Assembly: GCA_036320915.1 (NCBI GenBank)
Contig: JAXBDG010000001.1
Coordinates: forward strand, 4,734,001 to 4,798,000
Reading direction: 5' to 3'
DNA: 64,000 bases
Source: Linnemannia elongata
Lineage: Eukaryota > Mortierellomycota > Mortierellomycetes > Mortierellales > Mortierellaceae
Part shown: piece by piece, positions 37,834-61,228 of the stretch
Layout of the letters: each line of letters opens with the position of its first letter
How positions within the stretch are numbered: position 1 is the first letter of the stretch
Program-made: the position numbers and the translations under genes
Notes under the pieces: model-generated
Told to the model about the DNA's origin: nothing
What the model saw: the letters and a program-made list of their open reading frames with translations, nothing else
Database searches by the model: none

Positions 37834-38199
37834 ATGGCCGACAACCCTCTGACTCTGTTCTGTCTTGTCAACGAAGAGGCGACTTCTAACGCGTTCCCTG
37901 TTGCGATCGAGTCTACTATGACAATTGGTGACCTCAAGGACCTCATCAAGACCAAATTGTCCCCTCAGTTTGATGACATTGCAGCGAAAGACCTCACCCT
38001 CTGGCACGTCTCCATTCCTGTCGTTCCTGCCGACAAGCATAAGCCCATCTTCCTGAACGAGACTGATTCAGAGGAACTTAGCCCAACGGATGATGTTTCC
38101 GACGTCTTTCCGAAAGCACCACCCAAGAGAATGATCCACATCATCATTCAACGCCCCCCTCAAGGTAACGCAACGCGGAAATGCTTACAACCCTTGTAA
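37834..38199 (+). CDS. CRN (Crinkler-type) header, truncated at the giant element
   Basis: The frame starts MADNPLTLFCLVNEEATSNA and shows the ubiquitin-like CRN header: FPV.I.S.MTIGDLKDLIK, DLTLWHVSIPVV, LSPTDDVSDVF and the closing IHIIIQRPPQ. After this, eleven unrelated residues precede a stop formed by the element's terminal motif TTGTAA. A GTAACG splice donor lies right after RPPQ, so the normal gene probably had an intron there and a C-terminal effector domain beyond it. That domain is not present on the far side of the element. CRN proteins are secreted or intracellular modular proteins of filamentous eukaryotes. As it stands only the header could be made. Confidence 0.75.
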   Translation: MADNPLTLFCLVNEEATSNAFPVAIESTMTIGDLKDLIKTKLSPQFDDIAAKDLTLWHVSIPVVPADKHKPIFLNETDSEELSPTDDVSDVFPKAPPKRMIHIIIQRPPQGNATRKCLQPL

Positions 38200-38500
38200 A
38201 TTAAATGCTTACAAGGGTGTATGCATGAAAGTGTACTATGAGTAAAGATTCGATGAAAGGGGGTCTTTTACATTAGTGTAAGACGCACTCAACGAGTGAA
38301 TAAACACACATAGGTAAGCATTTCATAAAACGAAGGTCGAACAACCCAGTAAGGCTCTGGTTTTTTTGGAATGTTTACAATGGTGTATCAATTAGCCCCA
38401 AATCCATTTTTTACATACTTGTAGGAACATACGGCATCGCCTTTTCTTACCCCATTGTAAACAAAACTCGATTCTGCTTCCTTTACAACTGAGTAAGGAT
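38185..38500. repeat. Cluster of TTACA(N)TGTAA palindromic motifs
   Basis: A perfect palindrome TTACAA-CCC-TTGTAA at 38185-38199, then TTACAAGGGTGTA, TTACATTAGTGTAA, TTACAATGGTGTA, TTACATACTTGTA, TTACCCCATTGTAA and TTACAACTGAGTAA within 300 bp. The mirror set lies at about 60920-61240. Spaced subterminal motifs like these are typical transposase binding sites. Confidence 0.7.
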
Positions 38501-39179
38501 TACAGCAGAAAGGAGGCGGTTTTTATTTGCCGACAATTGGTCTAATCCTGGTTTGACCAGCGCTGCTGGATGCCTTAAGTCATTTGACTAGGCGACGCCC
38601 TTATCTGTGAATTGTCCATTTTTTTTGTTTTTGCCTCATTGATTTGACAGAAGGCAACAAAAGGTGTTTGACGCCTTGAGTGTCCATTTTGCTGGCGAAT
38701 TTTTTTTTGTCTTCAGGATGCCGGCCATCTTGACCTGACTTTTACATCCTTGTTACACTCATTTTTACACCCGTTCACACTTGAACCTGGCCAGAGTCGA
38801 AACACAAATTAGCCTCATCTTTCAGGCCATTACTGAACATGCACCGTCATTCGCTTTGTCTTCTTTTCAGATCTCGTCTCTTCAATCTCTCTTTATATTC
38901 AAACACAAGGAAACAAGGCTAAATCAAGCTCCACCAAGCTCAGGATCCTACACAGTCCTTGTTTGCTCGTTTGTTTCTTTGTCAAATATGTCATACAGGA
39001 CGAATAAAATAAGCAAAATATAGTTTATTCTTCGAGGTATCTTATGCCTTGCCGTCCGTGTAATTCTGCACTCAAAGAGGAAGTGATTACAGGGAGAGGT
39101 GCCAAGGACCTGATTGTGCATCTAAAGGTAGAAGAGAATAAGAATTGGTGAGAGATGAAAGGTAGAAGGAGAGGCTAAA

Positions 39180-57445: not shown

Positions 57446-57924
57446 AATGAGCAAGTTTGCATGAATAAACTGCAGGTGTTTTTTATTTGTACTACATCAC
57501 TATCAATTATGAAAACAATAGGGGAGGTATGTGCATGAGCAAAAGTGTCTTTTGTCGGTGTCAATCTACTAGATGAATCGACGGTGTTGTAAAATTGCAG
57601 CTGCCTTAAACGCCATATGCTTGCGCCGCATGTAGGTTTGAATTCTGATAGGGCTCAAAGAATGTGAAGGATGCAGAGTCAGAATAAAGAATATGTCCGA
57701 TAGAAAATGGAATAGAATGAGAAAAATGGCCACGGCTATTTTTTAAAACAGAAGGTAGAATCAATGGGAGATACATGTAAATATGCACACGATATCGTGT
57801 TCCAAGTCTATGTCACATTCCTCCTCTTTGTCTCGCCCTTTGTCTCGCCTCTGTCTCGCCTTCTCACACACATACACGCGCACACACTTCCATCTCCTTT
57901 TTCACGGAGAGCCGCGCTCGAGCA
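57446..57924. other. Short gene-less stretch before the right arm
   Basis: AT-rich DNA, then CA/CT-rich repeats that resemble an extra partial copy of the segment repeated inside the arms (ACACACTTCCATCTCC at 57880). Confidence 0.5.
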
Positions 57925-60900
57925 TGTCACGTAAGTGACTATGAGTAAATAGATGGCAGTATCAATTGGGTATTACTCATATCGGCCGGGCAGTCGCTTC
58001 GCCAGTATCAAAGAAATAAAAAAAGTGGCAAGCAAGGGAATAAAGGGAAGAGGATGTGGTCAAGAAAGAGGAAGGAAAATCAATGAAAGGCCCGTGCAAA
58101 CATGTGCACCCTTTCTCTTTCGAGTCCCTCAGTCATGCTTGTCCTCTCTGCCTCGCCCTCTCTCTCACACACACACGCACACACGCACACACCTCCATCT
58201 CCTTTTTCACGGAGCCGCGAACGAGCGTGTTACGTAAGTGATTGTGGGTAAATAGATGGCTATACTAATTGGGTATTATTCATATCGGTCAAGCATTCGC
58301 TTCGCCAGAATCCAAGAAAAAAAAAGAGGCAAGCGAGGGAATAAAGGGAAGAGGATGTGGTCAAAAAAAGAGGAAGGAAAATCAATGAAAGGCCCGTGCA
58401 AACATGTGCAGCTGTTGTGGTACGGGTTTATTTTTATTTATCCGTTTTTTTAACGAAGAAACGCTCAACCGATCAAGCCACACGAGCCGATACTGCTTAT
58501 TATCTGCTCTGTGATGCAAAATAAAGAAAACGCACTCTTTCTTCTCGTTAATTCTACCCATACTTCTCACACTCTTTTCATTTTCGAGTCCCTCAGTCAT
58601 TCTTGTACTCTCTGTCTCTTTCTCTCTCTCTCTTTCTCTCTCTCTCTCTCTTTCTCTCTCTCTCTCTCTCTCTCTCTCTCTCTCTCTCACACACACACAC
58701 ACACACGCACACACTTCTATCTCCTTTTTCATGGAGGGTCGAGGCCGAGCGTGTTATGCACGTGATTGCGAGGTTGGTATCGCCTATATCGACCAAGCAA
58801 TTGCTGGACCAGAGTCAAGGAAAAGAAAGGGGTGAAAAGTATGCAGTCTAAGTTAACGAGAAAAAAGAGTTGTTTTATTGTTTTACACCACTGGAGTGAT
58901 ATTTAACCACAGATGTGATAGTTAATCACAGAGGTGGTAAATAATCACGGAGATGATGATTATTATAAACAATCACGGAGGTGGTAGTTGAGAAGCGACC
59001 ATCTGCCATGTGGTGATGTGGTCGCTAGCAGCACTTCTTCGTTAAATAAAAAGACGGGGTAAAATAGAATAAAAAACCCCGTACCGCAACAGGGGGAGAG
59101 GCATACGTCACATCATGCACCCTTTGATCCCAGGTCAGTCTTTGCAAGGCTCGTATTCTGAGTTCTCACGAGCTTGCCTTTCGCCCTCTCTCTCACCCCA
59201 CGCTAGCTTTTTATTTGGGGATATTCGTCCTTGGTTGTACACCTTGTTGTTTCTATCAAGATCCAGGCCTAAGAAAAGTATAAGGTTATGGAGGCCCATT
59301 CGCGCCGTTATGCTTTGACCACTTTGTAAAAGAAGAAAACAAAAAAAAAAAAAAAAAAAAAAAAAAAGAAAGCGACGTAGGCACATGTTTTTGCCCAATT
59401 TTCTCTTTTTTTATAACACGAGTAGGAGGAAGTTGTCTACTTGAAAGCTTGTATCGTTCCTCCTTGGCTTCCTCTCGTTCTGCCCCTCACCATCTTTTGT
59501 TTTTCTGTTGGATTGATGGTGGAGGTGGTTGTTCCTTAACTTAATCACTCATTCCTGCTACCTCATCGTTGTTGTTTTTGCTTAACTGTTTTTCTTATGT
59601 ATAATCGTGTGGGTAAGAAAAGAGCATGCAGGTGATTAGTATCGCTTGCTTCCTGTTTTCTATCTTTTCGAAGCACCCGTGCACGGGTGCAAGTTTACGA
59701 AATGAGAGATACAGGGAGCGGAGAGGAAGGAGAGAGAGGGAGCAATGGACGACTGTCATTAGAAAAACGACTCATTGTACACAGCTCAGCTGTTGAGAAT
59801 TCTTACAACGTTTTAAAAAGAGCTACAGTCCGAATTGGACTTTTCCTCCCTTCTGTTCCATTTTCCTTTTCTCTTTCGTATTATTATACCGCCTCACGAC
59901 ACTCAATTCTCCTCTTCCTCTTTATCCCTCCATCCGTCCCCCATTCCCTCCACGCACGTTATCCCTTGTCTCCCTTTCTCCTTCGCTCTTTTCTTTTTTC
60001 TTAACACCCTTCCCCCTTTCCCTCTACCCCCTCTAGCTGCTTCCCTCTACTCCCCTCTAGCTGCTCCCCTCTATTCCCCTCTAGCTGCTCCCCTCTACCC
60101 CCCTCTTGCTGCTCCCCTCTATTCCCCTCTAGCTGCTCCCCTCTACCCCCCTCTTGCTGCTTCCCTCTACTCCCCTCTAGATGCTCCCCTCTACTCCCCT
60201 CTAGCTGCTCCCTCTACTCCTCCTCACCTTCCCTCTGCCCTCCTTTAGCCTCTCCTTCTACCTTTCATCTCTCACCAATTCTTATTCTCTTCTACCTTTA
60301 GATGCACAATCAGGTCCTTGGCACCTCTCCCTGTAATCACTTCCTCTTTGAGTGCAGAATTACACGGACGGCAAGGCATAAGATACCTCGAAGAATAAAC
60401 TATATTTTGCTTATTTTATTCGTCCTGTATGACATATTTGACAAAGAAACAAACGAGCAAACAAGGACTGTGTAGGATCCTGAGCTTGGTGGAGCTTGAT
60501 TTAGCCTTGTTTCCTTGTGTTTGAATATAAAGAGAGATTGAAGAGACGAGATCTGAAAAGAAGACAAAGCGAATGACGGTTCATGTTCAGTAATGGCCTG
60601 AAAGATGAGGCTAATTTGTGTTTCGACTCTGGCCAGGTTCAAGTGTGAACGGGTGTAAAAATGAGTGTAACAAGGATGTAAAAGTCAGGTCAAGATGGCC
60701 GGCATCCTGAAGACAAAAAAAAATTCGCCAGCAAAATGGACACTCAAGGCGTCAAACACCTTTTGTTGCCTTCTGTCAAATCAATGAGGCAAAAACAAAA
60801 AAAATGGACAATTCACAGATAAGGGCGTCGCCTAGTCAAATGACTTAAGGCATCCAGCAGCGCTGGTCAAACCAGGATTAGACCAATTGTCGGCAAATAA

Positions 60901-61228
60901 AAACCGCCTCCTTTCTGCTGTAATCCTTACTCAGTTGTAAAGGAAGCAGAATCGAGTTTTGTTTACAATGGGGTAAGAAAAGGCGATGCCGTATGTTCCT
61001 ACAAGTATGTAAAAAATGGATTTGGGGCTAATTGATACACCATTGTAAACATTCCAAAAAAACCAGAGCCTTACTGGGTTGTTCGACCTTCGTTTTATGA
61101 AATGCTTACCTATGTGTGTTTATTCACTCGTTGAGTGCGTCTTACACTAATGTAAAAGACCCCCTTTCATCGAATCTTTACTCATAGTACACTTTCATGC
61201 ATACACCCTTGTAAGCATTTAATTTACA
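57925..61228 (-). repeat. Right terminal inverted repeat
   Basis: Inverse copy of 38195-41570 with the same internal order of repeats. The CT microsatellite and the poly(A) tract (59341-59367) differ in length from the left arm. Confidence 0.9.

Follow-up and report, generated by a model that had tools for sequence, protein, structure and literature searches.

Does the fungus Linnemannia elongata (Mortierellaceae) carry a Mutator-like element (MULE) with terminal inverted repeats (TIRs) several kilobases long, or does its genome assembly only appear to contain one? The question arises from a 64,000-nucleotide stretch (positions 4,734,001 to 4,798,000 of contig JAXBDG010000001.1, hereafter the window), part of contig C1 in a 51.1-Mb genome of 32 contigs, in which an initial annotation had proposed a putative autonomous MULE of 23 kb, running from 38195 to 61228, with inverted arms of 3.3–3.4 kb. 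MULE TIRs are given as typically 100–500 bp in PMC3310237 and as over 100 bp in PMC5225508. We conclude that the window element is one copy of a genuine multi-copy MULE with real 3.3-kb inverted arms. The fuller reading that we favour, and consider very probable, is that of a multi-copy MULE (16,661 bp in its C8 copy, 3.3-kb arms, target-site duplications (TSDs) of 9–10 bp) predicted to move by cut-and-paste, with a transposase that likely binds palindromes in the outer arms, and of which the window copy is broken and likely mis-joined to the wrong right flank.

A search with the outermost 406 bp of the arm found 24 matching places across the genome, far above chance and for the most part arranged in inverted pairs. 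Paired arm tips lay about 23 kb apart on C1, C13, C17, C18 and C20, and about 16.6–16.7 kb apart on C2 (two pairs), C8 and C13; C4 carried a 20.6-kb pair, a 1.45-kb derivative and a single end, and C10 a single end. The sequences outside the tips were compared in 190 pairs among 20 flanks, five of which are the same flank, bearing part of a transposon with a RecQ-like gene, so the pairs are not all independent. Neither the 1.45-kb derivative nor an 83% copy on C4 contributed a flank, and C13xR, whose flank is again the RecQ one, was excluded since its tip string is no longer exact owing to a 1-bp deletion. Six of the 190 pairs shared an exact TSD (9 bp in three, 10 bp in three), all remaining pairs sharing less than 6 bp, and all six combined one type of tip, A, with the other, B. 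Five of them correspond to assembled copies (C13b, C2a, C2b, C8 and C4), and the sixth, which was unexpected, consists of the window left flank and the left flank on C20, both adjoining CAAGGTAACG. The other copies with identical ends and a 9–11 bp duplication that the initial annotation had looked to for confirmation are therefore represented by five assembled copies and the C1/C20 pair. Weighing against our reading, no partner flanks were found among the 190 pairs for C17, C10 and the C13 end copy.

The arms might alternatively be an assembly palindrome, as the initial annotation had itself cautioned, in which case no long-TIR element would exist. Identical inverted arms near contig ends can be artefacts, and four of the five 23-kb copies are on contigs ending in the same block of sequence. 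However, the five TSD-bearing copies (C8, two on C2, C13 and C4) lie within contigs, are closed by an arm tip on either side, sit between flanks that differ from copy to copy and are bordered by exact duplications, and both arms were read in C8, in the two C2 copies and partly in C4. These copies rule out an assembly palindrome as the whole explanation, and we regard it as extremely improbable that the element does not exist.

The C8 copy, read in its entirety, is 16,661 bp long, with TSD GACAAACAT and arms of 3,336–3,342 bp that are 99.7–99.8% identical. Its assignment to the MULEs is indicated by a TSD within the range of 8–11 bp (for the window copy, only through contig C20), by TIRs of about 3.34 kb (99.7–99.8% identity, though the final 24 or 25 bp differ between the ends) and by the MULE domain PF10551, detected with E 3e-18 in the window and E 6.6e-20 in C8, where the DDE triad is present. 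Residues D98, D160 and E343, together with C181, W183 and H184, were invariant across 12 aligned MULE proteins. The description as a long-TIR MULE was thus upheld. The annotated window arms are present, their outer 1,202 bp being 100% complementary, and the GTGAT array and the 24-bp minisatellite were found in both, as were GA/GT tracts. By contrast, the proposed ends had to be moved: the true tips, A and B, neither of which is the inverted copy of the other, sit just outside 38195 and 61228 and reach 24 bp (left) and 25 bp (right) further out.

The length of 23 kb also required revision. By comparison with C8, the window copy is a MULE that has received two inserts, one of 5.2 kb that is Helitron-like (insert 1) and one of 1.17 kb that is pogo-like (insert 2), and its size is inflated because of these nested inserts. 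The C8 interior has the transposase gene on the minus strand, with acidic and weakly FAR1-like exons, an uninterrupted catalytic DDE exon and an exon with a CxC..CxH motif that is, by eye, SWIM-like. The FAR1-like match, on the next exon after the acidic exon(s), had an E-value of 0.0012, below Pfam's cut-off. In P0011, an annotated 341-aa protein from Linnemannia hyalina, residues of the DDE exon are joined to those of the next exon, and the C8 bases matching this protein are separated by a 141-bp gap bordered by GT and AG, a predicted intron. The site of insert 1 falls, in C8, within this predicted intron, and insert 2 splits the DDE exon two residues past the first catalytic Asp. The separation of the annotated transposase exons is partly due to these inserts. 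The last 87 bp of insert 1 occur in at least 31 further genomic places, and its terminal end is the same as that of a nested Helitron-type element of about 10.9 kb within the C4 MULE (C4:794398-805316), which has Helitron_like_N and PIF1 open reading frames (ORFs) and ends in ...GGCAACGCCCTAG. Where a TSD copy had a transposase match (C8, C2 twice and C13), the gene runs from tip A towards tip B; in the window its direction relative to the tips is the reverse, which also points to a wrong right side. An uninterrupted transposase gene is lacking in the window copy, and, because of this interruption and of frameshifts in three accessory ORFs relative to the C8 copy or a close relative, it is not autonomous as assembled, contrary to what had been proposed.

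The sixth TSD pair bears on the right side of the window. The two ends of the window copy have no matching TSD, and the right side is likely chimeric because the match links the left flank of this copy to C20; from the sequences, the right side is likely a wrong flank, the true continuation probably being C20. The RecQ-like helicase gene to the right of tip B in the window belongs to a separate 6.1-kb transposon (61254-63499 in the window and C2:1016386-1022484) with 457-bp TIRs (TAGTCTCGCTTCC...), which is MULE-free at C2, where an 8-bp TSD (GGGTGTCC) was seen by eye, and at C28, where no clear TSD was seen. A 37-kb larger element, comprising the MULE, the RecQ element and a further 12 kb and moving as a unit, was rejected because the RecQ gene is in this separate, elsewhere MULE-free element. 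Beyond the final base of the arm, C1, C17, C18 and C20 continue for 14,410 bp with 0 mismatches and all terminate at the same base. Most simply, the assembler would have continued a number of contigs broken at a MULE along one path, that of a copy lying inside the RecQ transposon.

Alternatively, the window may be real, a MULE broken on one chromosome having been healed by break-induced replication, in which arm homology allowed a block from another chromosome end to be copied, so that several chromosome ends would now carry a MULE, the RecQ element and the same further 12 kb. Such an origin is consistent with the five contig ends at which the block adjoins a MULE, with the homology supplied by the long arms, with the B–B tips at C17, C18 and C20, and with Galileo, a long-TIR element for which chimeric copies whose flanks do not match have been described (PMC3573991). 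The C13 end copy of the block points in the same direction: it is 99.75% identical, has its own indels and extends past the block, features that fit real spreading better than pure contig extension and count against a purely artefactual origin. However, by TSD and arm identity C1 and C20 look like halves of one insertion, and both would therefore have needed to capture the same block. Furthermore, four contigs agree over all 14,410 bp of the block and break off at a common base, as graph extension would give, and the telomere-like repeat of C17 was not found at the block-side ends searched (C1, C18 and C13). We therefore consider break-induced replication improbable, and retain the reading of a mis-joined right flank. 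The C17 repeat is a 10-mer, CCCTAAAAAA (TTTTTTAGGG), of which about 490 bp open the contig (C17:1-491); the usual telomere repeat is TTAGGG, unlike this 10-mer. In C18, each side of the copy has a B tip and an identical half of the RecQ transposon (11938-14409 and 37415-39685), with matching 8-bp sequences (CACTGCGC/GCGCAGTG) outside; this arrangement may be due to gene conversion across nested inverted repeats or, alternatively, to misassembly.

The arm alignment covered 14 of the arms behind the 24 matches, with the two C4 arms only in part. The window left arm showed 0 substitutions in 3,297 aligned positions with the C20 left arm and 1 in 3,297 with the A arm of C2b, and the left arms of C1, C20 and C17 were mutually free of substitutions (6–18 gap columns), that of C13 differing by 2–3. 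The window right arm differed from the left by 18 substitutions in 3,226 positions and from the C18 inner arm by 2 in 3,291, in line with a right side that probably belongs to another copy. Substitutions private to one copy were counted outside the GA tract, the columns of which were excluded, including two more C8 sites, each in both arms. All four such substitutions in C8, and four of the six in C4, were present in both arms, which suggests arm-to-arm gene conversion. Two observations argue against this interpretation: outside the GA tract, neither of the sister copies C2a and C2b had substitutions of its own, and the three that are private to this pair (alignment columns 563, 1011 and 1285) are in one arm only. 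Conversion would therefore be at most episodic, not continuous; these retained differences also show that the arms were not everywhere made uniform by polishing. The identity of the arms might instead reflect youth only, the copies having moved too recently for divergence, and the near identity of C2a and C2b, which nonetheless keep their A/B arm differences, is in line with this. However, the presence of private substitutions in both arms at 8 of the 10 sites in C8 and C4 is not expected from independent mutation, and we think it unlikely, although not negligibly so, that youth suffices in place of occasional conversion.

A repeated palindrome, YTTACA-N4-TGTAAR (counted with spacers of N3-6; Table 1), suggests a role for the outer arms. 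With at most two mismatches, the outer 650 bp contains eight sites in the left and eight in the right arm of the window, and eight per outer 650 bp in C8, against 0.77 expected; the highest count at this threshold in 500 first-order Markov simulations was 3. Elsewhere in C8, two sites were found in the remaining 2.7 kb of arm and four in the 10-kb interior. The word TTACA occurred 14 times (2.2 expected; highest value of 8 in 2,000 simulations), and the first palindrome straddles the border between tip and arm. The outer arms may thus load a transposase on these putative binding sites. Two points weaken this case: the motif was defined post hoc, from these same arms, and when three mismatches were allowed the contrast was weaker (13 sites versus 5.1 expected), with at least one simulation reaching 13.

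In C8, one plus-strand accessory ORF with a zinc finger predicted by eye adjoins each arm. In the window, ORF 1 is frameshifted after residue 266 relative to the C8 copy, and ORF 2 is frameshifted relative to the 273-aa ORF of C8. ORF 1 had seven homologues at the cut-off used, all from Linnemannia or Mortierella, one of which, from L. gamsii, apparently includes an ORF 2-like sequence, as judged by eye. The third ORF, a candidate Ulp1-like cysteine protease, carries a frameshift in the window ahead of the putative catalytic Cys, relative to the 435-aa ORF of C8 or the relative P0060. The Ulp1 identity of the 435-aa ORF is weak. Its His and Cys motifs were recognised by eye; the Pfam C48 match was below the cut-off (E 0.087), the best match in PDB was an unrelated channel (E 0.74; ChlaDub2, E 0.83), a profile search against solved structures was empty, and the AlphaFold model of P0060, aligned with the window ORF, had a pLDDT confidence score of only 31. 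The frameshifts of the window may also be consensus errors, which would count against a broken copy. The closest named protein matches were from Linnemannia and Mortierella. Among the element ORFs scanned, only MULE-type domains passed Pfam's cut-off, with no search aimed at the polymerase B/integrase or tyrosine recombinase captain of a Maverick, Starship or other giant element.

Table 1. Features of the MULE copy and its surroundings, in window positions
Feature	Position	Strand	Remarks
TSD, left copy	38161..38170	+	CAAGGTAACG, 10 bp; partner in contig C20, not inside window
Terminal tip A	38171..38194	+	CAACGCGGAAATGCTTACAACCCT, 24 bp; true left end of element
Outer 650 bp with repeated palindrome	38171..38820	+	YTTACA-N3-6-TGTAAR; predicted transposase-binding array
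Left long inverted arm	38195..41579	+	
24-bp minisatellite, left arm	39198..39405	+	mirror 60020-60225
GTGAT 19-bp array	40484..40536	+	mirror 58896-58957
Accessory ORF 1	41531..42367	+	predicted C2HC zinc finger and coiled coil (by eye)
Transposase exon with SWIM-like CxC..CxH motif	43825..44919	-	motif recognised by eye, no Pfam match
Foreign insert 1, Helitron-like	44994..50227	.	TC...CTAG ends
MULE DDE domain, 3' part of split exon	50228..51324	-	PF10551
Foreign insert 2, pogo/mariner-like	51325..52493	.	inverted CAGTCAGACC-type ends, TA duplication
Transposase, 5' part of DDE exon	52494..52953	-	
Transposase N-terminal exon(s) region	53234..53917	-	acidic
Ulp1-like cysteine-protease candidate	54664..55839	-	
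Accessory ORF 2	56808..57419	+	predicted C2HC zinc finger (by eye)
Right long inverted arm	57913..61228	-	RecQ-copy class
Terminal tip B	61229..61253	-	25 bp; reverse complement CAAAAAAGAATTTCTTACAATACTC
Likely false flank	61254..64000	.	RecQ-bearing transposon, part of shared 14,410-bp block

In the mechanism that we propose, the transposase would load on the palindrome array of both arms and pair the two different tips, A with B, cutting beside the CAA ends. Breaks or replication errors in one arm would at times be repaired from the other, since the arms constitute kilobases of near-perfect homology, and private substitutions would spread to both arms, tips A and B remaining different despite this exchange. 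The Ulp1-like and zinc-finger proteins may promote expression, stabilise proteins or help the element to evade silencing, roles that have been suggested for plant MULEs carrying additional genes, and the long identical arms would have led the assembler to extend several contigs along one common path. A broader reading, which we offer only tentatively, is that of a distinct MULE lineage of the Mortierellaceae, with arms acting as multi-site loading platforms for the transposase, equalised by intra-element gene conversion, capped by non-interchangeable tips A and B that would confer polarity, and serving as portals for the spread of chromosome-end blocks.

The element resembles the FAR1/Jittery-type MULEs (plant FAR1-RELATED SEQUENCE) in its MULE DDE domain, weakly FAR1-like N-terminus and, by eye, SWIM-like motif, and the named non-fungal proteins among the matches listed were from plants, mostly of the FAR1 type. 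It nevertheless shares only 21–26% identity with the four plant proteins aligned, has a fungal host and is much larger, as are its arms. Jittery-like is a subfamily name in PMC2528002, and the likeness noted here comes from domains and motifs, not from a tree. Muta1 of Aedes aegypti is described in PMC5225508 as having an imperfect palindromic terminal motif, a repeated subterminal motif, 8–9 bp TSDs and nearly identical copies, as here, but it is 3,198 bp long with 145-bp TIRs (PMC5225508). The KI-MULEs (Kaonashi) and other Ulp1-bearing plant MULEs also have a MULE transposase, here beside an Ulp1-like candidate, and further genes (PMC13317346, PMC2528002); however, KI-MULEs are described as being without TIRs, unlike the element with 3.3-kb TIRs reported here, the Ulp1-like ORF of which is a candidate. 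Galileo, of the P superfamily in Drosophila, has long TIRs that are repetitive inside and offer its transposase several binding sites, and shows inter-copy exchange and chimeric copies, but belongs to another transposase superfamily, with 7-bp flanking sequences and TIRs of up to about 1.26 kb, according to the parts of PMC3573991 and PMC3688188 covered. Extended TIR regions have also been described in plant MULEs with multiple TIRs, mostly as tandem TIR units rather than the single 3.3-kb arm seen here (PMC3310237). In the passages covered of a review of giant eukaryotic transposons, Pack-MULEs are given a maximum of 7 kb and giant MULEs are not mentioned (PMC6431247), and no description of a MULE with 3.3-kb arms was found among the matches listed in the open-licence literature.

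Length is regarded as a handicap for large DNA transposons (PMC6431247, PMC3688188), and a 16.7-kb MULE that was active recently and carries 3.3-kb arms would, if true, show how a transposon affords such arms. The element is also a naturally occurring test case for gene conversion between arms, since its tips remain distinct whereas the adjoining 3.3 kb is close to identical. In practical terms, such arms may derail assemblies, the window being likely a chimera itself.

A second MULE family, encoding an ORF of 479–498 aa, was observed at C14:841641-841916 and in ten further places (11 in total), with equal domain scores; no long inverted arms were found in the 10 kb read around the C14 copy of this family, the longest pair being local and of 114 nt. 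Finally, the insertion site of the MULE copy in the window falls where an ORF encoding a Crinkler N-terminal domain ends (PF20147; 37540-38199).

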